Assembly: GCF_004348665.1 (NCBI RefSeq)
Contig: NZ_SMKM01000007.1
Coordinates: forward strand, 1-64,000
Length of the DNA stretch: 64,000 bases
Direction: 5' to 3'
Source: Actinomadura sp. GC306
GTDB lineage: Bacteria; Actinomycetota; Actinomycetes; Streptosporangiales; Streptosporangiaceae
The notes under the pieces are model-generated. The model saw only the letters and a list, made by a program, of their open reading frames with translations. It had not been told where the DNA came from and searched no databases. Position numbers and translations under genes: made by a program. Positions 4,759-13,758 of the stretch are shown here, piece by piece (position 1 is the stretch's first letter; each line of letters opens with the position of its first letter).

Positions 4759-7059
4759 ATGAGCGGGAGCGGGCGCGACGGGCTCGCCGGGCGCACCGTC
4801 CTGCTGACCGGCGTCACCGGCTTCATCGGGCAGGCGCTGCTGGAGCGGCTGTTGTCCGGGCATCCCGAGACCCGCGTCGTGACGCTGCTGCGGGAGCGGC
4901 CCGGCGTCCCCGCGGAGCAGCGACTGGACGAGCTGGTCGCCAAGCCCGTGTTCGCGCCGTGGCGGGAGCGGGTCGGCGAGGACGCGGCCCGCGAGATCGT
5001 CCGGGACCGGGTGCGGGTCGTCCCGGCCGACATCACCGAGTCCGTCCCCGAGCTGCCGGACGACGTCGACGCGGTGATCCACGGCGCGTCCATCGTGTCG
5101 TTCGACCCGCCGATCGACGAGGCGTTCGCGACGAACGTCGTCGGCACGGTCGACCTGTACGAGGCGGTCCGCCGCGCCGGGGAGCGGTCCGGGCGGACCC
5201 CGCACATCGTGCACGTCTCCACCGCCTACGTCGCGGGGTCCCGCAAGGGCATCGTCCCGGAGACGACCCTCGACCACGAGGTCGACTGGCCCACCGAGCT
5301 GGAGTACGCCGTCGAGGCGCGCCGGACCGTCGAACGCGACTCGCGGCGCCCCGAGGTCCTCGGGCGGCTGCGCGCCGCCGCGCTCGGCGAGCAGGGCAAG
5401 GCCGGCCCGACCGCCGTCGCCGCCGACACCGAGCGCCGCCGCCGCGAGGAGGTCGACGCCCGGCTCACCGACTACGGGCGGGAGCGGGCCCGCAGCCTCG
5501 GCTGGCCCGACGTGTACACCTTCACCAAAGCGCTCGGGGAACGCGCCGCCGAGGAGACCGCCCGCGAGCTGCCGCTGTCGATCGTGCGGCCCGCGATCGT
5601 GGAGAGCGCGCTGCGGCACCCGTACCCCGGCTGGATCGACGGGTTCAAGATGGCCGACCCGCTGATCCTCGCCTACGGGCAGGGGATGCTGCGCGCCCTC
5701 GCCGGCATCCCGGACGGCATCGTCGACATCATCCCGGTCGACATGGTGGTGAACGCGCTGATCGGCGCCGCCGCCCGGGTGCCGGAGCCCGGCGTCCCCG
5801 CCTACTACCACGTGGGGTCGGGCGCCCGGAACCCGCTGACGCTGCAGCGGCTCGTCGAACTCGTCCAGGGCTACTTCGCCGAGCATCCGCTGCCCGGCAC
5901 CGACGGGCGCGGCGCGATCCGGCCCCGCGACGTGACGCTGCTCAGCGACGGCCGCGCCGAGAAGGTGCTCGGCACCGCCGAACGCGCGATGGACCTCGCC
6001 GAGCGCGCGCTGCTGATGCTGCCCAGCGGGGAGCGCACCCGCGGCTGGCAGCGCACCCTGCACAAGCAGGGCCGCGAGGTGCGGGCGCTGCGCCGCTTCC
6101 GGGACCTGTACGGGGCCTACGGCGCCGCCGAGGTCGTCTACGCCGACACCGCCACCCTCGCGCTCGACCGGGAGCTGCCGGACGGCGCGGGCTGCGACTC
6201 GGCGGTCATCGACTGGGACCACTACCTCCGCGAGGTGCACTGCCCCGCCGTGACGGGCGCGTTCCGCCTCGCGCCGCCGCACCGGCCGGAGCCGCGCCCG
6301 GCGCTGGCCGTCCGCCCGGCGGCGCCCGCCGTGCGGTTCGAGGAGCGCCGCGACGTCGCGGCCGTGTTCGACCTGGACGGCACGATCGTCGCGTCCGACG
6401 TCGTGGAGGCGCACCTGTGGGCGCGGCTGCTGGACGTGCCCGTCCGGTCCTGGCCGGGGACGCTGCTGCCCGTGCTGCGGTCCGCGCCGCGCTACCTGCG
6501 CATGGAGCACCGCGACCGCGGCGAGTTCCTGCGCGAGTTCGTCCGCCGCTACGAGGGCGCGAACGAGGCGCGGCTGCGGGCGCTGGCCCGCGAACGGCTC
6601 GCGGACGTGCTGCTGCGGCGGGCGTGGCCGCAGGCGATCCGCCGCATCCGGAGCCACCGCGCGGCCGGGCACCGCACCGTTCTGCTCACCGGCACCGTGG
6701 ACGTCTTCGTGGAGCCGCTGCGGACCCTGTTCGACGACGTGCTGGCGGCGCGGCTCCGCGTCGTCGACGGGCACTTCACCGGGCACTTCGAGCATCCCCC
6801 GCTGATCGGGGAGGCCCGCGCGGCGTGGCTGCGCGCCTGGGCCCGCGAGGAGGGCGTCGACCTGGCCGGGAGCTGGGCGTACGGGGACCACTACTCGGAC
6901 CGTCCCGTCCTGGAGCAGGTCGGCAACCCGGTCGCCGTCAACCCGGACCCGCGCCTGTACCGGCACGCCAAACGGGAGCGCTGGACGATCGCGGACTGGG
7001 ACGGCGACACCGGAGCCGTGGCCACCCTCCTCGACACCGCTCTGGAGGAGGCCCGATGA
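4759..7059 (+). CDS. Fatty acyl-CoA/ACP reductase fused to a HAD-IB phosphatase
   Basis: A 766-residue fusion. Residues about 1-500 are an extended SDR of the fatty-acyl/thioester-reductase (male-sterility) type: NAD(P)-binding TGVTGFIG at residues 17-24 and YTFTK with Tyr253 and Lys257. Such enzymes reduce acyl thioesters to aldehyde or alcohol. Residues about 530-766 are a HAD-superfamily phosphatase (DLDGT at 538-542, nucleophile Asp538; later LLTGTVD and a GDHYSD acid motif). It is the first of four genes joined by ATGA overlaps, so its product probably acts with the dehydrogenase, LarA-like protein and acyltransferase downstream. The substrate is not predictable; long-chain acyl-CoA or acyl-ACP is inferred from the neighbouring PlsC. 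Confidence 0.85.
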   Translation: MSGSGRDGLAGRTVLLTGVTGFIGQALLERLLSGHPETRVVTLLRERPGVPAEQRLDELVAKPVFAPWRERVGEDAAREIVRDRVRVVPADITESVPELPDDVDAVIHGASIVSFDPPIDEAFATNVVGTVDLYEAVRRAGERSGRTPHIVHVSTAYVAGSRKGIVPETTLDHEVDWPTELEYAVEARRTVERDSRRPEVLGRLRAAALGEQGKAGPTAVAADTERRRREEVDARLTDYGRERARSLGWPDVYTFTKALGERAAEETARELPLSIVRPAIVESALRHPYPGWIDGFKMADPLILAYGQGMLRALAGIPDGIVDIIPVDMVVNALIGAAARVPEPGVPAYYHVGSGARNPLTLQRLVELVQGYFAEHPLPGTDGRGAIRPRDVTLLSDGRAEKVLGTAERAMDLAERALLMLPSGERTRGWQRTLHKQGREVRALRRFRDLYGAYGAAEVVYADTATLALDRELPDGAGCDSAVIDWDHYLREVHCPAVTGAFRLAPPHRPEPRPALAVRPAAPAVRFEERRDVAAVFDLDGTIVASDVVEAHLWARLLDVPVRSWPGTLLPVLRSAPRYLRMEHRDRGEFLREFVRRYEGANEARLRALARERLADVLLRRAWPQAIRRIRSHRAAGHRTVLLTGTVDVFVEPLRTLFDDVLAARLRVVDGHFTGHFEHPPLIGEARAAWLRAWAREEGVDLAGSWAYGDHYSDRPVLEQVGNPVAVNPDPRLYRHAKRERWTIADWDGDTGAVATLLDTALEEAR

Positions 7060-8309
7060 TCCTGGCGCTGGAGTACCACCGCTCGCCCGCCCGCTACCTC
7101 GCCGCGGCGCGGCTGCCCGGCCGGCTCCGCCCGGCGGCCGTGCCCTCGCTGGCGCCGCTGCGGCTGTCGCACCGGCAGCCGCCCGGCCCGCCGGGACCCG
7201 GCTGGGTGCGGCTGCGGACCGTCCTGTCCGGCATCTGCGGGTCGGACCTGGCGATGGCGGCCGGGAAGGTGTCGCCCTACCTGGGGCCGCTCACGTCGAT
7301 GCCGTTCGTGCCGGGCCACGAGGTGCTCGCCGAGCTGCTGGACGACGCCGAAGACATGCCGGCGGGCACGCGGGTCGTCCTCGATCCGGTGCTGCCGTGC
7401 CGGGCGCGCGGCACCGGCCCGTGCCCGTCCTGCGCGGACGGCCACGAGAACAGGTGCGACCACGTCAACGCGGGCCGGATCTCCTCGGGGCTGCAGACCG
7501 GGTTCTGCGCCGACACGGGCGGCGGCTGGTCGGAGCGGCTGGTCGCGCACCGCAGCCAGCTGCACCGGGTGCCGGAGTCGCTGCCGTCCGAGCGGGCCGT
7601 GCTCGCCGAGCCGCTCGCGTGCGCGGTGCGGTCGGTGCGCCGCATCGACGTCCCGCGCGGCACGACGATCGTCGTGGTCGGCGCCGGGACGGTCGGGCTG
7701 CTGACCGTCCTCGCGCTGCGCGAGCTGACCGCCGCCGGGCCGATCATCGTCATCGCCCGGCACGCCGGGCAGCGGCGGCGCGCCCGCGCGCTCGGCGCGA
7801 CCGAGACCATCGACCCGTCGGCGGCGCTGCGCGGGCTGCGCCGCGTCACCGGCGGCTCGCTGGTGCGTCCCGAGCTCGGCCCCGGCTACCTGCTCGGCGG
7901 CGCCGACATCGTCGTCGACTGCACCGGCGGGGAGGGGCTCGACACCGCGCTGCGCATCGTCCGGGCGGGCGGGACGGTGCTGCTGTCGGGAATGCCGTCC
8001 AAGCCGACCGACCTGACGCCCGCCTGGTACCGGGAGCTGAACGTCGTCGGCTCCTACGCCAGCCGCGGCGCGGACGACTTCCGGGCCGCGCTCGACCTGG
8101 CCTCGCACGACGCGCTCGACGGGTTCGTCGACAGCGTCTACCCGCTCACCCGCTGGCGGGACGCGCTGTCGCACGCGCTGTCCGCCGGCCGCTCGGGCAG
8201 CGTCAAGATCGCGTTCGCCCCGCAGAACGGCGGCCCGCCCGCGCCGCACGGCGCGGCGTCCGCCGGCGCCGACGGCCCCGACCGTCTCGATCGCGAAGGA
8301 GCTTTTTGA
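7056..8309 (+). CDS. Zinc-dependent alcohol dehydrogenase (MDR superfamily)
   Basis: A 417-residue medium-chain dehydrogenase. GICGSD (zinc ligand Cys61) and GHE (residues 87-89) form the catalytic zinc site, and a Cys-rich loop (CPSCADGHENRC) gives the structural zinc. The Rossmann motif is GAGTVGLLT. Its start overlaps the reductase stop (ATGA). It should oxidise or reduce a secondary alcohol or polyol phosphate in the same pathway. It could supply the hydroxy- or keto-substrate for the LarA-like protein or process the aldehyde from the reductase; the sequence does not decide between these. Confidence 0.85.
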   Translation: MILALEYHRSPARYLAAARLPGRLRPAAVPSLAPLRLSHRQPPGPPGPGWVRLRTVLSGICGSDLAMAAGKVSPYLGPLTSMPFVPGHEVLAELLDDAEDMPAGTRVVLDPVLPCRARGTGPCPSCADGHENRCDHVNAGRISSGLQTGFCADTGGGWSERLVAHRSQLHRVPESLPSERAVLAEPLACAVRSVRRIDVPRGTTIVVVGAGTVGLLTVLALRELTAAGPIIVIARHAGQRRRARALGATETIDPSAALRGLRRVTGGSLVRPELGPGYLLGGADIVVDCTGGEGLDTALRIVRAGGTVLLSGMPSKPTDLTPAWYRELNVVGSYASRGADDFRAALDLASHDALDGFVDSVYPLTRWRDALSHALSAGRSGSVKIAFAPQNGGPPAPHGAASAGADGPDRLDREGAF

Positions 8310-9886
8310 TGAGCAGACCGGGACTCGTGCTGGAGGTGGACGAGCGGACGCCGCCGATCCTGGTGCACGAGGGAGAGGGGTTCCGGCTGGAGCGCTTCCC
8401 CCTCGGCACCCGGGTGATCTACCCGCCGGACTCGCTGCCCGGCCTGCGCGACCTCACCGGCCGGATCCGCGAGGCGCTGCTGAACCCGCTCGGCAGCGAG
8501 CCGCTGCCGGAGCTGCTGCGCCCGGGGATGCGGCTGACGATCGTGTTCGACGACCTGTCGCTGCCGCTGCCGCCGATGCGGGCGCCCGACGTCCGGCAGC
8601 GGGTGATCGAGCAGGTCCTGGAGCTGGCGGCGGCGGCCGGGGTGGACGACGTCGAGCTGATCGCCGGGAACGCGCTGCACCGCCGGATGACGCCCGCGGA
8701 GATCAAGCACATCGTCGGCGAGCGCGTGTTCAACTCGTTCTGGCCGGACCGGCTCCGCAACCACGACGCCGAGGACCGCGACGACCTGAAGTCCCTCGGG
8801 CAGACCCGGCACGGCGAGGAGGTCGAGATCAACCGCCGGGCCGCCGAGAGCGACCTCATCGTCTACGTGAACATCAACCTGGTGGCGATGAACGGCGGCG
8901 CGAAGTCCGTCGCGGTGGGGCTGGCGTCGTACAAGAGCCTGCGGCACCACCACAACGTCCACACGCTGCGGCACTCCCGCTCGTTCAACGACCCGCCGAA
9001 CTCGGCGATGCACCACTCCTACGACCGGATGCACGAGCTGCTGTCGGAGTCGGTGCGCGTCTTCCACATCGAGTGCACCCTCAACAACGACCAGTTCCCG
9101 TCGCCGTTCGAGTTCCTGAACAAGCGCGAGTGGGAGTGGACGCTGAAGGACCAGGCGAAGTTCCTGGCCGCCAAGCGCGCCAACGACCTCGCCCCGGCGG
9201 GTGCGCGGCACCGGGTGTGGCAGGGGATGCGGGCGCCGTACGGGGTGACGGGCGTGCACGCGGGCGCCACCGACGAGGTCCACGAGCGGACCCTCGCGGC
9301 CGTCCACCGGCAGCAGCTGACCGAGGTGCACGGCCAGTCGGACGTGCTGATGCTGGGCCTGCCGTACCTGTGCCCCTACAACGTCAACTCGGTGATGAAC
9401 CCGATCCTCGTGTTCAGCCTGGGGCTCGGCTACTACTTCAACATGTACCGGAACAAGCCGCTCGTCCGGGAGGGCGGCGCCCTGATCATGTACCACCCGA
9501 TGAGGTCGGAGTTCCACCCGCTGCACCACCCCTCCTACATCGACTTCTACGAGGAGGTGCTGACGCAGACGACGGACCCGGCGACCATCGAGACGAAGTA
9601 CGAGGAGCAGTACGCCACCGACCCCTGGTACGTCCACCTGTACCGGAACTCCTACGCCTACCACGGCGTCCACCCGTTCTACATGTGGTACTGGGGCGCG
9701 CACGCGCTGTCCCACCTGGGCGACGTCATCTGCGTCGGCGCGGACCGCAAGGTCGCGTCCCGGCTCGGGTTCCGCGCGGCGAGCACCCTCGCCGACGCCC
9801 TGGAGATGGCGGGCGAGACGGTCGGCCGCAGCCCCAGCCTCGCCTACCTGCACACCCCGCCGATGACGCTGGCGGACGTCCGATGA
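8309..9886 (+). CDS. Divergent LarA-family (DUF2088) nickel-pincer enzyme
   Basis: A 525-residue member of the lactate racemase (LarA) family, about 100 residues longer than Lactiplantibacillus LarA. By hand alignment, GGAKS supplies Lys199 (equivalent to pincer-binding Lys184), HHHN supplies His215 (equivalent to Ni ligand His200, with the same 16-residue spacing), and NALHRRMT supplies His124 (equivalent to His108). The region of the second catalytic His174 reads YVNINLVAMN with no His, and the usual D-x-T-R-P motif reads DDLSLPLP. This is therefore a remote subfamily, possibly with altered chemistry. The C-terminal 230 residues are rich in Tyr, His and Trp. ATGA overlaps couple it to the genes on both sides. 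The cofactor genes larE, larB and larC lie just downstream on the other strand, supporting real use of the nickel-pincer nucleotide. It is probably not a lactate racemase. Confidence 0.82.
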   Translation: MSRPGLVLEVDERTPPILVHEGEGFRLERFPLGTRVIYPPDSLPGLRDLTGRIREALLNPLGSEPLPELLRPGMRLTIVFDDLSLPLPPMRAPDVRQRVIEQVLELAAAAGVDDVELIAGNALHRRMTPAEIKHIVGERVFNSFWPDRLRNHDAEDRDDLKSLGQTRHGEEVEINRRAAESDLIVYVNINLVAMNGGAKSVAVGLASYKSLRHHHNVHTLRHSRSFNDPPNSAMHHSYDRMHELLSESVRVFHIECTLNNDQFPSPFEFLNKREWEWTLKDQAKFLAAKRANDLAPAGARHRVWQGMRAPYGVTGVHAGATDEVHERTLAAVHRQQLTEVHGQSDVLMLGLPYLCPYNVNSVMNPILVFSLGLGYYFNMYRNKPLVREGGALIMYHPMRSEFHPLHHPSYIDFYEEVLTQTTDPATIETKYEEQYATDPWYVHLYRNSYAYHGVHPFYMWYWGAHALSHLGDVICVGADRKVASRLGFRAASTLADALEMAGETVGRSPSLAYLHTPPMTLADVR

Positions 9887-10806
9887 GCGGGGGGCGGATG
9901 AAGCTGGCCGAGGAGATCCGGCTGCTGCGGCGCGGGCGCGACTGGCGCGGCCGGGCGCCGGCGCCGCGGTCGGCGCAGCCCTGGACGGAGGGCCCGCGCG
10001 CGCGGCCGTTCCCCACCGAGTGGGCGCGGACGCCCCTCGCCGCGGCGACCCGGACGGTCGCGTTCGACGGCATCCTGCGCACGGTCACCTGGAGCCAGAC
10101 GCGACCCGAGGTCCACGGCCTCGACCTGCTGGAGGGCGTGCAGGGCCCGGTCGTGTTCGTCGCCAACCACGCCAGCCACCTCGACACGCCGCTGATCCTC
10201 GGCTCGATGCCGGCCGCGGTGCGCCGGCGGGTCGCGGTCGCCGCGGCCGCGGACTACTTCTTCGACGCCCGCTGGCGCGCGGTCGCGACCGCGCTGACCT
10301 TCAACGCGTTCCCGATCGAGCGGCGCGGCGTCGAACGCTCCCTGGACCTCGCGGCCGAGCTGATCGAGGACGGGTGGAGTCTGCTCCTCTACCCGGAGGG
10401 CACCCGCTCGCCGGACGGCTGGGCGCGCCGGTTCCGGATGGGCGCGGCGCTGCTGTGCCGCGAGCACGGGATCCCGGCCGTCCCGCTGGTGCTGCGCGGC
10501 ACGTACCAGGCGATGCCGCGCGGCGGGTTCTGGCCGAAGCCCGGCCGTCCCGTCGTGTCGGTGCGCTACGGCCGCCCGATCGCCTGCGAGCCGGACGAGT
10601 CCACGGGCGCGTTCAACGGGCGGCTGGAGGACGAGGTCGGCCGCCTGTGGGTCGAGCACGACGAGGGCTGGTGGGCGTCGCTGCACGCGCCGGACCGCCG
10701 CCGCACCCCGCGCGGCCCGGAGGCGGCGGAGTGGCGCCGCAAATGGGAGGCGACCCGCCCCCAACCCCCCTCAGAGCGCCACCACCGAATCTGGCGCCGC
10801 CGCTGA
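9883..10806 (+). CDS. PlsC-type 1-acylglycerol-3-phosphate acyltransferase
   Basis: A 307-residue glycerolipid acyltransferase. Motif I is NHASHLD (HX4D with His96 and Asp101) and motif III is EGTRS (Glu172). It would transfer an acyl chain to a lysophospholipid or related alcohol at the membrane. The start overlaps the LarA-like stop (ATGA); an in-frame ATG at 9898 is an alternative. As the last gene of the four-gene operon it is the strongest hint that the pathway product is a lipid. The N-terminal 50 residues are basic and Pro-rich, without an obvious signal peptide. Confidence 0.87.
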   Translation: MSGGRMKLAEEIRLLRRGRDWRGRAPAPRSAQPWTEGPRARPFPTEWARTPLAAATRTVAFDGILRTVTWSQTRPEVHGLDLLEGVQGPVVFVANHASHLDTPLILGSMPAAVRRRVAVAAAADYFFDARWRAVATALTFNAFPIERRGVERSLDLAAELIEDGWSLLLYPEGTRSPDGWARRFRMGAALLCREHGIPAVPLVLRGTYQAMPRGGFWPKPGRPVVSVRYGRPIACEPDESTGAFNGRLEDEVGRLWVEHDEGWWASLHAPDRRRTPRGPEAAEWRRKWEATRPQPPSERHHRIWRRR

Positions 10807-10811
10807 CCACT

Positions 10812-10877
10812 CCGTTGACTTGCGGCGTGTTGTTGTTATGGGACGCCGGATAACAACAACACGCCGCAAGTGAACGG
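10812..10877. repeat. Long inverted repeat, copy 1 (bidirectional terminator-like)
   Basis: The left arm 10812-10839 and right arm 10850-10877 are inverted copies, 28 bp each with one mismatch, around a 10-nt loop. The arms include CTTGCGGCGTGTTGTTGTTA. The element fills the gap between the convergent plsC-like gene and larC. A near-identical element lies at 54352-54415, also between convergent genes. The stem would fold in RNA from either strand, so it can act as a bidirectional terminator, but there is no typical U tract. Confidence 0.85.
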
Positions 10878-10881
10878 TGGT

Positions 10882-11619
10882 TCAGCGGGGGGTGGGGGTC
10901 TCGCCCAGGACTACCTGGGTCACGTTCGGGAAGTCGCCGAAGATCTTCGTGCCGGCGCCGTAGCCGTTGGACGTGACGGTCATCGTCGGCATGGGGCCGA
11001 AGCCGTCCGCCAGCGCTACCAGCAGCGCAGTGCCCGTGGGGGTGGCCATCTCGGCGTCGATGTCGTGGCCCCGCATCGGCGCGCGGGCGCGGGCCAGCAG
11101 CTCCACGACCGCCGGGCCCGGGTTCGGGATCAGGCCGTGCCGGCACCGGATGAACCCGTGCCCGACTGGGATCGGCGCGGCCCGTACCTCGTCCACACCG
11201 AGGGTCTCCAGCGCGGCGCACGACCCGACGATGTCGACGATCGCGTCGTGGCCGCCGACCTCGTGGAAGTGGACGTCCGCGGGGGGCGTGCCGTGCACGG
11301 CGCCTTCGGCCTCGGCGAGCGACCGGAACACGGCGAGGGCCCGGTCGCGCACGCGGCCCGGCAGGGGCGCGGAGCCGACGAGATCCTCGATGACGGCGTG
11401 GGTGCGGGAGACCGCGTCGTCCTCGACGCCGACGATCGCGCGGGTCGCCGCGATGCCGCGCCGCATGACCCGCTCGGTGTCCAGGGACCAGCCGGGGACG
11501 CCGAGGCCCTTGAGCATGGCGCGGACCTCGCCGAGGTCGGCGCCCGCGTCCAGCAGGGCGCCGAGGGCCATGTCGCCGGCGACCCCGGCGAAGCAGTTGA
11601 CGTAGGCGATGCGCTTCAT
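10882..11619 (-). CDS. larC: LarC N-terminal domain only: nickel insertion protein for the pincer cofactor
   Basis: A 245-residue protein beginning MKRIAYVNCFAGVAGDM, the LarC (DUF111) signature, with HFHEVGGHDAIVDIVG and GYGAGTKIFG further on. LarC inserts Ni(II) into the thiocarboxylated pyridinium cofactor. Full-length LarC has about 420 residues, in Lactiplantibacillus as LarC1 and LarC2 joined by a frameshift. Here translation stops about where LarC1 ends, and only 4 bp later the inverted repeat begins, so there is no room for LarC2. The start overlaps the larB2 stop (ATGA). It is the last gene of the larE-larB1-larB2-larC operon. Family assignment is firm; function without the second domain is uncertain. 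Confidence 0.85.
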   Translation of the reverse strand: MKRIAYVNCFAGVAGDMALGALLDAGADLGEVRAMLKGLGVPGWSLDTERVMRRGIAATRAIVGVEDDAVSRTHAVIEDLVGSAPLPGRVRDRALAVFRSLAEAEGAVHGTPPADVHFHEVGGHDAIVDIVGSCAALETLGVDEVRAAPIPVGHGFIRCRHGLIPNPGPAVVELLARARAPMRGHDIDAEMATPTGTALLVALADGFGPMPTMTVTSNGYGAGTKIFGDFPNVTQVVLGETPTPR

Positions 11620-12233
11620 GCGAGCAGCCTCCAGGCGAGTACCGCGGCCCCGAGGCCGTCGTCGATTCCGGTGGCGGCGAGGCCCGGCGCACCGGAGGTG
11701 AGCAGCGCCGCCAGCGCGGCGAGGCCGCCGTCCGCGCTGCCGTAGCCGACGCTCGTCGGCACCGCCACCACGGGGCGGGACGTCAGCCTGGCCACGGCGG
11801 ACGGCAGCGCACCGTCCATGCCCGCCACGACGATGAGGAGCCGCGCCTCGTCCAGGTCGTCCCGCACCGCGAGGAGGCGGTGCAGGCCCGCCACCCCGAC
11901 GTCGGCGGTCAGCGTCGCCGGGAGGCCGAGCGCGGTCGCCGCGGCCTTCGCCTCCTCCGCCACCGGCAGGTCGGCCGTGCCTGCGGAGACGATCGCGACC
12001 GGCCGCGGCACCCATGAGCAGGGCCGGGGCCGCGGGCGGGTCAGCACCACGAGCCCGGACCGCGGGTGGTGGACGGCGTCGGGTGCGGCCTCGCGGGCCG
12101 CCTCGTACTGCTCCCGCGAAGCACGCCGGAGGAACGCGGCCTCCGCGTCGCGGGCGAGCAGGTCCTTGACGCATTCGCGCACCCGGTCCAGGTCGAGGCC
12201 GCCGGCGTCGGCGTAGGCGATCGGGTGGTTCAC
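11616..12233 (-). CDS. larB: LarB paralogue 2: keeps the AIR-carboxylase-like motifs, lacks the catalytic Cys
   Basis: A 205-residue LarB-like protein starting at GTG 12233, which overlaps the larB1 stop. LarB carboxylates nicotinate adenine dinucleotide in pincer-cofactor synthesis. This copy retains SAGTADLPVAEEA, VAGMDGALPSAV and VPTSVGYG, the canonical PurE-like core. It has lost the N-terminal GFxxVD and EGKT motifs. The C-terminal region reads TSGAPGLAATGIDDGLGAA, where normal LarB has NSCAxGVxVVNIDNGFGAG, so the Cys is Gly. These losses are the reverse of those in the adjacent larB1, suggesting a heteromeric enzyme with composite active sites. Confidence 0.8.
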   Translation of the reverse strand: MNHPIAYADAGGLDLDRVRECVKDLLARDAEAAFLRRASREQYEAAREAAPDAVHHPRSGLVVLTRPRPRPCSWVPRPVAIVSAGTADLPVAEEAKAAATALGLPATLTADVGVAGLHRLLAVRDDLDEARLLIVVAGMDGALPSAVARLTSRPVVAVPTSVGYGSADGGLAALAALLTSGAPGLAATGIDDGLGAAVLAWRLLA

Positions 12234-12904
12234 ACGGCCCCCCGCGTGTTGACGAGGTGGGCGGCGTATCCGGCGCCGTACCCGTTGTCGATGTTGACCA
12301 CGACGACTCCCGGTGAGCACGCGTTCAGCGCGGACAGCAGGGCGGCCTTGCCGGGCAGGTGCCCGCCCGCTGAGGTCGGCAGGGCGATGACCATGCGGTC
12401 CACCAGCCCGGACACCAGCGTCGGCAGTGCGCCGCCGGTCCCGTCCGCGACGACGAACACCGCCGGGCCGTCCTGCTCGCCGAGCCAGCCCGGCAGCGCG
12501 GCGGGGTCGTGTACGGGCGCGTCGTACCGGCGCACGACGCGGCTGCCCATCGCCTCGGCGACCAGCGCCGCCTCCTCGGCGGCGGGCTCGTCGGCGGGCC
12601 GGCCGCAGACGACCTCGACGCGTCCGGTGCCGCGCCGCGCGACCGGAGCCAGGACGGCCAGCCGCGCCCGCTCGTGTACGACCGCCCCCGGGAAGGCCGT
12701 GCGCAGTGCGTGCAGGGTCTCGTCCGGCGCGCGGGTCGCCAGCACGTTGACGGCGCCCGCGCCGGTCAGGCTCTCCGCGATCGCGACGACCTCCGCGGTC
12801 GTCTTGCCCTCGCAGAACACCGCCTCCGGATGCCCGCGGCGCCGCCCCCGGCCGATGTCGACGCGGGCGAACCCCAGCTCGGCGACGGCGTCCGGCGCGG
12901 TCAC
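12230..12904 (-). CDS. larB: LarB paralogue 1: keeps the N-terminal motif and catalytic Cys, degenerate core
   Basis: A 224-residue LarB-like protein, starting at GTG 12904 and overlapping the larE stop (GTGA). The N-terminal GFARVDIGRGRRRGHPEAVF and EGKT are typical LarB. The C-terminal LNACSPGVVVVNIDNGYGAG is also typical and carries Cys196, equivalent to the Cys that adds to the nicotinate ring in characterised LarB. In between, the normally invariant motifs are altered: SAGTSD is CGRPAD, VAGMEGALP is VADGTGGALP, and VPTSVGYG is LPTSAGGH. With larB2 next to it, the two copies together preserve a full motif set. Confidence 0.82.
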   Translation of the reverse strand: MTAPDAVAELGFARVDIGRGRRRGHPEAVFCEGKTTAEVVAIAESLTGAGAVNVLATRAPDETLHALRTAFPGAVVHERARLAVLAPVARRGTGRVEVVCGRPADEPAAEEAALVAEAMGSRVVRRYDAPVHDPAALPGWLGEQDGPAVFVVADGTGGALPTLVSGLVDRMVIALPTSAGGHLPGKAALLSALNACSPGVVVVNIDNGYGAGYAAHLVNTRGAV

Positions 12905-13758
12905 GAGGCGGCCGCCCGCAGGCGGGGCAGGCCGAGGACGGCGTTGTGGCTGCCCTGCCGGTACGGCTCCAGGTCAAGGGTCACGTAGCGGAAGCCGGCG
13001 TCCTTGAGCAGGGCGGCGATCTCCGGGGCCCGCTCGGCGACGCGTCCGATGTCGGCCGCCTCCACCTCGATGCGGGCGAGGTCGCCGCCCTGGTCGCGGA
13101 CGCGGAACCGGCCGCCGAACCCGGCGCGGCGCAGCGCGTCCTCGGCGTCCTCGACGCGGCGCAGGGCCGCTCGGGTGACCGGTACCCCGTACGCGAGGCG
13201 CGACGACAGGCACGCCGAAGCGGGTTTGTCGGACGTCGGCAAACCCAGCACGCGGGCGGCGTCCCGGACGTCGGCCTTGCTCAGCCCCGCGTCCACCATC
13301 GGGAACCGGGCGCCCATCCGGCGGGCGGCGCTCTGCCCGGGACGGTGGTCCCCGAGGTCGTCGGTGTTCACGCCGAGCAGGACCGGCCAGTCCCCCGCCT
13401 CCGCCGCGACCGCCGACAGCACCGAGACGAGCGCCTCCTTGCAGAACCGGCACCGGTCGGCGCCGTTGGCCGCGTACCGCTCGTCGTCCAGCTCGGCGGT
13501 CGTCACCACGCGGTGCCGCATCCCCAGCCGGGCCGCCTGGGCGCGGGCGTCCGCCAGCTCCGACCGGGCCAGCGACGGCGAGTCGGCCGTGACGGCGAGG
13601 GCGCGGTCGCCGAGCTCCCGGTGGGCCAGGTAGGCGAGCAGCGAGCTGTCCACCCCGCCCGAGTAGGCGACGACGGCGCCCGGCAGCGCGGCCAGCGACC
13701 TGCGCAGGGCGGAGATGTCGGGCGTGTCCGGCGGCCGCGGAACGGGCCTGTCGGCCAT
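12901..13758 (-). CDS. larE: LarE: ATP-dependent sacrificial sulfur transferase
   Basis: A 285-residue PP-loop protein with SGGVDSSLLAYLAHRELG near the N-terminus, RCRFCKEAL, and PASACLSSRLAYG containing Cys183, which matches the sacrificial Cys176 of Lactiplantibacillus LarE. LarE adenylylates the dicarboxypyridine precursor and donates sulfur from its own cysteine. The start ATG has a strong Shine-Dalgarno AAGGAGAT just upstream. It is the first gene of a four-gene operon whose members all overlap by 4 bp, and it faces the operon with the LarA-like enzyme. Confidence 0.9.
   Translation of the reverse strand: MADRPVPRPPDTPDISALRRSLAALPGAVVAYSGGVDSSLLAYLAHRELGDRALAVTADSPSLARSELADARAQAARLGMRHRVVTTAELDDERYAANGADRCRFCKEALVSVLSAVAAEAGDWPVLLGVNTDDLGDHRPGQSAARRMGARFPMVDAGLSKADVRDAARVLGLPTSDKPASACLSSRLAYGVPVTRAALRRVEDAEDALRRAGFGGRFRVRDQGGDLARIEVEAADIGRVAERAPEIAALLKDAGFRYVTLDLEPYRQGSHNAVLGLPRLRAAAS

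Follow-up and report, generated by a model that had tools for sequence, protein, structure and literature searches.

Why should a gene for a LarA-like protein, a member of the superfamily associated with the nickel-pincer nucleotide (NPN) cofactor, stand in the middle of a lipid operon? The question is raised by the first 64,000 nucleotides of contig NZ_SMKM01000007.1 of Actinomadura sp. GC306, a 64-kb contig within a 7.08-Mb genome; this whole stretch is called the window below. Four forward genes of the window, encoding a fatty acyl-CoA reductase (FAR) fused to a HAD phosphatase domain (FAR-HAD), a zinc medium-chain dehydrogenase (MDR), the LarA-like protein and a PlsC-type acyltransferase, face a reverse operon for NPN synthesis. 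A preliminary description of the locus had proposed that the LarA relative acts on an intermediate of a lipid pathway, for instance by fixing the configuration of a hydroxy group before acylation. The comparisons reported here lead to another answer: the four forward genes probably constitute a nickel-pincer branch of ether-glycerophospholipid biosynthesis, although confidence in the chemistry proposed for it is lower than that in the pathway. The locus is composed as follows.

4759-7059, forward (+) strand: FAR-HAD, fatty acyl-CoA reductase fused to a HAD-IB phosphatase domain
7056-8309, forward (+) strand: MDR, zinc medium-chain dehydrogenase (PF08240/PF00107)
8309-9886, forward (+) strand: LarA-like protein of the LarAH14/15/16 family (NF052592)
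9883-10806, forward (+) strand: PlsC-type acyltransferase (PF01553, E 1.2e-17; HX4D and PEGT motifs by alignment)
10812-10839 / 10850-10877, no strand: inverted repeat of 28 nt with a 10-nt loop, 96% complementary, between the converging operons
10882-11619, reverse (-) strand: larC, the N-terminal LarC1 part, 245 aa (PF01969, Ni_insertion, and TIGR00299)
11616-12233, reverse (-) strand: larB paralog 1 (NF033503, 183.8 bits, cut-off 175)
12230-12904, reverse (-) strand: larB paralog 2 (NF033503, 173.8 bits, slightly below the cut-off of 175)
12901-13758, reverse (-) strand: larE, sulfur transferase of NPN synthesis (TIGR00268, 277.6 bits, cut-off 150)

The coordinates and identities of the two converging gene sets hold as first described, and so do the 4-bp overlaps of the reverse genes (ATGA, GTGA and GTGA). 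ATGA coupling, which had been ascribed to all the forward genes, is found at the FAR-HAD/MDR and LarA/PlsC junctions, while MDR and LarA overlap by 1 bp in TGATG. The inverted repeat at 10812-10877 is a possible two-way terminator. FAR-HAD matches PF07993 (NAD_binding_4, E 5.7e-48) and PF12710 (E 1.3e-34), its closest solved structure is the fatty acyl-CoA reductase 7eoz (E 1.1e-45), and both its YxxxK and its HAD DxDGT motifs are intact. The closest solved relatives of MDR are 4ej6, a putative zinc dehydrogenase (E 1.4e-30), and the ketose reductase 1e3j (E 2e-24), together with sorbitol dehydrogenase. By alignment it carries the motifs CGSD, GHE and EPLA, which we take to be zinc ligands, and it is a candidate C2-ketone reductase. 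A FAR and a glycerolipid acyltransferase, as in the ether-lipid pathway with alkylglycerone-phosphate synthase (AGPS), lie within the same operon.

The role of the two middle genes can be approached from relatives that lack them. Two gene sets, cassette A (FAR-HAD/MDR/LarA/PlsC) and cassette B (FAR-HAD/SDR/PlsC/AGPS, where SDR is a short-chain dehydrogenase/reductase), have FAR-HAD and PlsC in common and differ in the middle genes. A class sample of 236 genomes was searched for LarA at E 1e-20 and for FAR-HAD at E 1e-60, and FAR-HAD was found in 59: 31 with LarA outside genus g44, 22 without LarA and six with a degenerate g44 LarA. AGPS matches were divided into a strong class of at least 587 bits (30 genomes) and a weak class of at most 351 bits by a line drawn after the scores had been seen. 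On this division, strong AGPS is present in 22/22 FAR-HAD genomes without LarA and 7/7 g44 LarA genomes. Outside g44 it occurs in 0/32 LarA genomes, of which G152 alone has no FAR-HAD match; each of the 59 FAR-HAD genomes has LarA or strong AGPS. Strong AGPS also occurs in a g44 genome (G181) with neither a LarA nor a FAR-HAD match. The weak class, 31-43% identical to the cassette-B AGPS, is present in 52/236 genomes. At E 1e-60 no AGPS was found anywhere in the window's own genome, where a looser threshold was not tried, nor in 10 other LarA genomes.

By their coordinates, the genes for FAR-HAD and AGPS adjoin each other on a single contig in 20/22 FAR-HAD genomes without LarA; they lie on different contigs in G209 and far apart in G211. 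Among the 12 of these FAR-HAD loci that were fetched, SDR, PlsC and AGPS stand near FAR-HAD in 11, and in the twelfth (G211) an AGPS-PlsC-SDR group is placed away from it. Since the cassette-B AGPS matches solved AGPS structures from two sources (2uuu, E 1.2e-101; 4bby, E 4e-84), cassette B looks like a classical ether-lipid set, as does MXAN_1676-1674 of Myxococcus xanthus. SDR itself is a poor marker of cassette B, because relatives of its SDR (48-53% identical) are found in four cassette-A genomes, the window's own (48%) included, among the 18 genomes searched. In a FAR-HAD tree of 78 rows, built by a quick method with SH-aLRT support only and midpoint rooting, and with two rows flagged as long branches (L047, from G211, and L048), 11 cassette-B rows fall inside cassette A beside Haloactinopolyspora rows, G211 stands separately among Nocardioides and Kribbella rows, and the Frankia-like rows lie within the type-A rows of family f17. 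The starred branches force two origins of cassette B, and the tree, with the Frankia-like case added, suggests at least three independent replacements. The LarA DNA of three sampled genomes is identical to that of named strains: G142 to Parafrankia soli, G017 to Frankia sp. CIT1 and G164 to Haloactinopolyspora alba.

Genus g44, which by its position in the tree we take to be Frankia-like, retains both a LarA and a strong AGPS. Neither LarE above its cut-off nor a LarC profile match was found in its seven LarA genomes. All six g44 LarA proteins that could be aligned (G207 has a fragment only) have lost the lysine that binds NPN, which is replaced by G or A, as well as the conserved asparagine, replaced by G or E; the nickel histidine is lost in two and the catalytic histidine in three. 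Five MDR proteins of g44 were aligned, and the four that reach the region (L038 is partial) have lost the Cys of CGSD and the His of GHE and have no Cys in the structural-zinc lobe. The FAR YxxxK and the PlsC HX4D/PEGT motifs remain intact. As read from these motifs, joint decay in g44 affected the two genes that differ between the cassettes and spared the shared pair. No other cassette gene was found beside the strong AGPS of g44 within the fetched flanks (eight loci, some with short flanks). Because of the repeated mutual exclusion and this joint decay where AGPS is present, LarA with MDR and AGPS with SDR appear to be interchangeable.

If the LarA-like protein works with NPN, its gene should travel with those of cofactor synthesis, and the preliminary description had linked the two. 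LarA is found in 39/236 class-sample genomes, seven of them in g44. Among the 32 outside g44, LarE, counted only above its curated cut-off (weak matches occur in 236/236), is present in 31 and LarC in 31, with both in 30 and at least one in all 32, versus 35 with LarE and 35 with LarC among the 197 genomes without LarA. The cofactor lysine is present in 31 of the 32; the fragments of the remaining genome (G170) end before it. In a phylum sample of 296 genomes, LarA, distant homologs included, occurs in 99, and LarC accompanies it in 88/99 versus 105/197 of the others. Of the 80 named loci, 26 have one or more lar genes in the flank that was fetched, and few of these are Kribbella or Nocardioides loci. 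The coupling of a lipid gene set to the nickel-pincer cofactor is thereby supported outside g44, and LarE, LarC or both accompany LarA throughout the class sample there; in the phylum sample the link is incomplete, since nine cassette genomes have no LarC match. Given the co-occurrence and the conserved residues, a chance neighbourhood of the lar genes is considered unlikely in spite of these nine genomes.

The LarA-like protein scores 922.4 bits against NF052592 (cut-off 740) and matches Lar_N at E 2.8e-42, and so belongs by sequence to LarAH14/15/16, a named family without a solved function; it is 98% identical to LarA of Actinomadura livida and of Actinomadura sp. 6K520. Its closest solved structures are the single-histidine LarA proteins 9q2u/9q3k (E 1e-37) and 9q3j (E 7e-33). 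In its AlphaFold model (predicted local distance difference test score, pLDDT, 89.9), the best fold match is 9q3k (Z 37.7, root-mean-square deviation 2.7 over 450 residues, 25% identity); LarA, Mar and Thermotoga relatives reach Z 21.8-37.7, and all other matches listed remain at Z 6.1 or below. With residue roles taken from PMC12611868, alignment with the solved structure assigns D82, H124, K199 and H215 as cofactor Asp, catalytic His, NPN Lys and nickel His, so that the protein very likely uses NPN. H124 is kept at the place of H108 of Lactobacillus plantarum LarA, and Asn188 lies close to where the second catalytic histidine (H174) would be, a region in which the alignment needs a one-residue gap; the histidine pair of a hydroxyacid racemase is not complete. 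Leu85 occupies the place of Arg75, which serves the cofactor phosphate and the substrate carboxylate. D82, H124, N188, K199 and H215 are kept in 126/126 distinct loci outside g44, where residue 85 is Leu in 94, Ile in 25, Cys in 6 and Val in 1. Ordinary 2-hydroxyacid racemization is unlikely because the places of the second His and Arg75 are changed, and a hydroxyacid racemase was dropped as the leading idea. According to Desguin et al. (PMC7583248), a Frankia LarAH14 was without activity in seven hydroxyacid assays, and LarA groups without these residues may carry out a hydride reaction of another kind.

The arrangement of the four genes is conserved far beyond chance, and the set is widespread in Actinomycetota. 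A total of 135 loci were fetched (80 named loci closest to the window, 20 from the class sample, 34 from the phylum sample, and the window), which left 126 after removal of nine duplicates. The order FAR-HAD>MDR>LarA>PlsC is found in 96/126, and PlsY>FAR-HAD>MDR>LarA in 13/126. The other 17 have FAR-HAD>MDR>LarA (nine), MDR>LarA>PlsC (four), LarA>PlsC (two), FAR-HAD>LarA>PlsC (L140) or LarA alone (L222), and 14 of these partial rows end at a contig end or at the end of the fetched stretch; L098 has 1.6 kb downstream of LarA without a recognised PlsC, and L140 has no recognised MDR. The HAD DxD motif is present in 84/117 cassette-A FAR-HAD rows (some loci counted twice) versus 2/12 cassette-B rows, and since it is so variable, the phosphatase role is probably not central to the pathway. 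A gene for a ferritin-like/diiron protein with weak Rubrerythrin and FA_desaturase_2 matches adjoins cassette B in 5/12 loci (L044, L045, L046, L050 and L051) and lies near cassette A in 11/80 named loci (L079-L081, L087, L089-L092, L094, L102 and L128) as well as in L053; it could be a desaturase of a shared lipid.

The order with PlsY leads to Rubrobacter. Family f54 is identified as this genus by 15-kb stretches of four genomes that match R. radiotolerans, R. indicoceani, R. tropicus and R. marinus plasmids at 100%. Plasmid carriage was considered and set aside, a Rubrobacter LarA query against a plasmid collection having given two partial larA matches only. LarA is present in 24 f54 genomes of the phylum sample, of which 21 loci were fetched. 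PlsY stands upstream of FAR-HAD in 15/15 loci that reach there (five do not, and L222 has LarA alone), and the one PlsY tested matches PF02660 at E 3.7e-49. No full-length AGPS was found in 26 f54 genomes at E 1e-30, with one partial match of 39% identity. PF09989, which we take to be a component of the PlsA/Ger proteins of another ether-bond route, was found in 0/26 f54 genomes and in 0/32 genomes in total, the window's own included. Of the core lipids of Rubrobacterales, about 46% are stated to be ether-linked phospholipids in PMC10821996, which cites Sinninghe Damste et al. 2023 (doi 10.1016/j.syapm.2023.126404). The link of the present operon to these lipids may already be in print. The abstract of Sinninghe Damste 2023 on Rubrobacterales lipids reportedly refers to a probable ether-lipid operon of aerobic bacteria.

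The facing cofactor operon had been described as full. LarB, LarE and LarC are indeed present, but LarC consists of its N-terminal part only: its 245 residues cover the Ni_insertion profile (PF01969; 375 positions) from 1 to 236, so that the complete LarC1 plus LarC2 set is lacking in the window. Eleven Actinomadura-named loci, the window among them, were compared, and in 10 of these LarC likewise consists of LarC1 only, with 239-245 aa (the exception, L084, has 396 aa). Two loci of family f52 also have a short LarC (L201, 286 aa; L202, 248 aa), whereas its length in the remaining loci of this comparison is 366-413 aa. By alignment, the larB product at 11616-12233 keeps the AGTADLPV, DVGVAG and VPTSVGYG motifs and has no C-terminal Cys, and that at 12230-12904 keeps the C-terminal NACS Cys and the N-terminal EGKT and has lost the AGTSDLPV, DVGVAG and VPTSVGYG motifs. 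Adjacent LarB paralogs with such complementary losses are also seen in the Actinomadura loci L073-L079 and L081, and the pair may form an obligate heteromeric LarB.

A pathway may be proposed on this basis. FAR-HAD would convert a fatty acyl-CoA or a fatty acyl-acyl carrier protein (ACP) to fatty aldehyde or alcohol; the LarA-like protein, loaded with cofactor from the facing larEBBC genes, would form the ether bond on a backbone of glycerol phosphate or dihydroxyacetone phosphate (DHAP); MDR would reduce the resulting C2 ketone; and PlsC, or PlsY in Rubrobacter, would put the ester chain on glycerol phosphate. LarA and MDR would thereby replace the AGPS and SDR reductase of animals, myxobacteria and related actinobacteria; we infer both the nature of the product, an alkyl glycerol ether, and the part of LarA in forming its ether bond. 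Cassette B needs a keto backbone, AGPS acting on acyl-DHAP (PMC9131029), and a reductase; the LarA step might be an AGPS-like exchange on acyl-DHAP. Alternatively, fatty aldehyde and glycerol 3-phosphate (G3P) might be joined by a hidden hydride transfer, in which the cofactor borrows the C2 hydride to give alkyl-DHAP for reduction by MDR; since NPN takes and returns a hydride, such an ether synthesis is chemically imaginable. It is tentatively suggested, with rather more doubt than assurance, that the LarA-like protein is a nickel-pincer ether synthase, which would work through a hidden transfer of hydride or through an exchange bound to the cofactor, an NPN reaction other than racemization, and that with MDR it represents a further, independent evolutionary solution to bacterial ether lipids that is widespread in Actinomycetota. 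The NPN reactions in the papers cited here are racemization or epimerization of 2-hydroxy acids, and no paper joining NPN with ether lipids, DUF2088 with a FAR and an acyltransferase, or a glycerol ether with Frankia was found among the matches listed from the open-access library searched. If the proposal is true, a cofactor discovered only recently would gain a new role, and NPN chemistry would include reactions of a second kind. A definite class of substrates could then be named for a LarA group that has so far defied assay, actinobacteria such as Rubrobacter would have a candidate ether-lipid gene set, and it could be tested how unrelated enzymes came to solve one and the same step.

Other explanations share some of this evidence. 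The two cassettes might make different lipids, with LarA and MDR acting on another polar backbone or on a hydroxylated chain and AGPS ethers arising from cassette B only; the cassettes differ only in their middle genes, MDR resembles polyol and ketose dehydrogenases, and related LarA structures are tied to phosphorylated sugars by gene context and an unidentified 316.5-Da ligand (PMC12611868). We regard this as unlikely, since the mutual exclusion and the joint decay suggest interchangeable functions, and since Rubrobacter, whose order has reported ether lipids (PMC10821996), has cassette A and no full-length AGPS. The reading first proposed for the window, a racemase or epimerase that fixes the configuration of a hydroxylated intermediate prior to acylation by PlsC, would agree with the superfamily and with the adjacent cofactor genes. 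It is made very improbable by the replacement, in every distinct locus outside g44, of the second His by Asn and of Arg75 by L, I, V or C, by the inactivity of the Frankia protein and by the absence of any epimerase from cassette B, which has AGPS and a reductase instead.

The ethers might instead come from the weak AGPS-like paralog, with LarA and MDR performing a side step such as the supply of DHAP-type or G3P-type substrate. This paralog, 34-39% identical, is present in 21/32 LarA genomes outside g44 versus 31/177 genomes without FAR-HAD, and the HHH motif is present in the single copy that was tested, which resembles a solved AGPS (2uuu, E 3.8e-86) and may be active. Its absence at E 1e-60 from the window's genome and 10 other LarA genomes, the lack of a match at E 1e-30 in 25/26 Rubrobacter-family genomes and its occurrence in those 31 genomes without FAR-HAD render this explanation improbable. 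That the LarA-like protein has no nickel-pincer cofactor, and is a structural or binding protein of the lipid operon beside lar genes that are neighbours by chance, finds some accord with the degenerate copies kept in Frankia-like genomes without LarC and LarE, with the nine other cassette genomes without a LarC match and with the missing LarC2 in most Actinomadura loci seen; against the invariant cofactor Lys and nickel His in 126/126 distinct loci outside g44, the LarE and/or LarC in 32/32 class-sample LarA genomes there and the lar genes flanking 26/80 named loci, it is scarcely credible.

Several observations weigh against the ether-lipid pathway itself, the distribution of the weak AGPS-like paralog among them. 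LarC and LarE are still present in 4/22 cassette-B genomes. Ten of the 11 phylum-sample LarA genomes without LarC were examined: one (G396) has a distant homolog, and nine have the cassette with all cofactor residues. These nine, in which LarB and LarE were not searched for, are 81-98% complete, with G333, G476 and G504 at least 95%; sequence gaps may explain some of them. No second PF01969 match was found in the window's genome, and its LarC2 part is missing. The loss of cofactor genes with LarA decay is confined to one clade and hence is one event. The degenerate LarA and MDR of g44 remain long open frames (L032, L033, L034, L036, L038 and L039), for which simple replacement does not account, and they are apparently maintained pseudoenzymes. 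No strong cassette-B-type SDR was found in eight Frankia-like genomes, the sole match at E 1e-35 being 41% identical. Several f54 loci have other genes, up to about 6.5 kb, between MDR and LarA, the MDR match of L223 is in three pieces, and the LarA of L222 stands alone. The alternative ether routes looked for in Rubrobacter were full-length AGPS and PF09989, neither of which was found, and ElbD was not searched for. Finally, two loci of family f58 (L213 and L214), left out of the cassette counts, have a LarA 43-44% identical to that of the window with K and H kept, which lies without the cassette near a CoA transferase family III gene.

Among known systems, bacteria have another route to the ether bond in PlsA/PlsR and the glycerol ester reductase (Ger), which reduce ester lipids; the PF09989 domain, which we assign to reductases of this route, is the one found in none of the 32 genomes tested. 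The single-histidine LarA proteins of Streptococcus plurextorum and Blautia wexlerae (9q3k and 9q3j) share with the window protein the fold, the cofactor residues, the Asn in place of the second His and an alignable C-terminal domain. They are about 25% identical to it, have Arg or Lys at the phosphate/carboxylate place where the window protein has Leu, and belong to a sugar context rather than a lipid operon; the place of their His306 is Pro in the window protein. The elb operon of M. xanthus (ElbB, HAD; ElbD, FAR-ACS-ACP-acyltransferase; ElbE) likewise brings a FAR, a HAD and an acyltransferase domain together to make alkyl ether lipids, but as described in PMC9131029 it has no LarA, and the FAR is fused to ACS-ACP there and to HAD in the window. 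The AGPS pathway of mammals and of M. xanthus (MXAN_1676-1674), which cassette B resembles, shares with the window operon the FAR, the acyltransferase and the NAD(P)-dependent reductase steps (PMC9131029), whereas the window operon is without AGPS and SDR and has LarA and MDR in their place.

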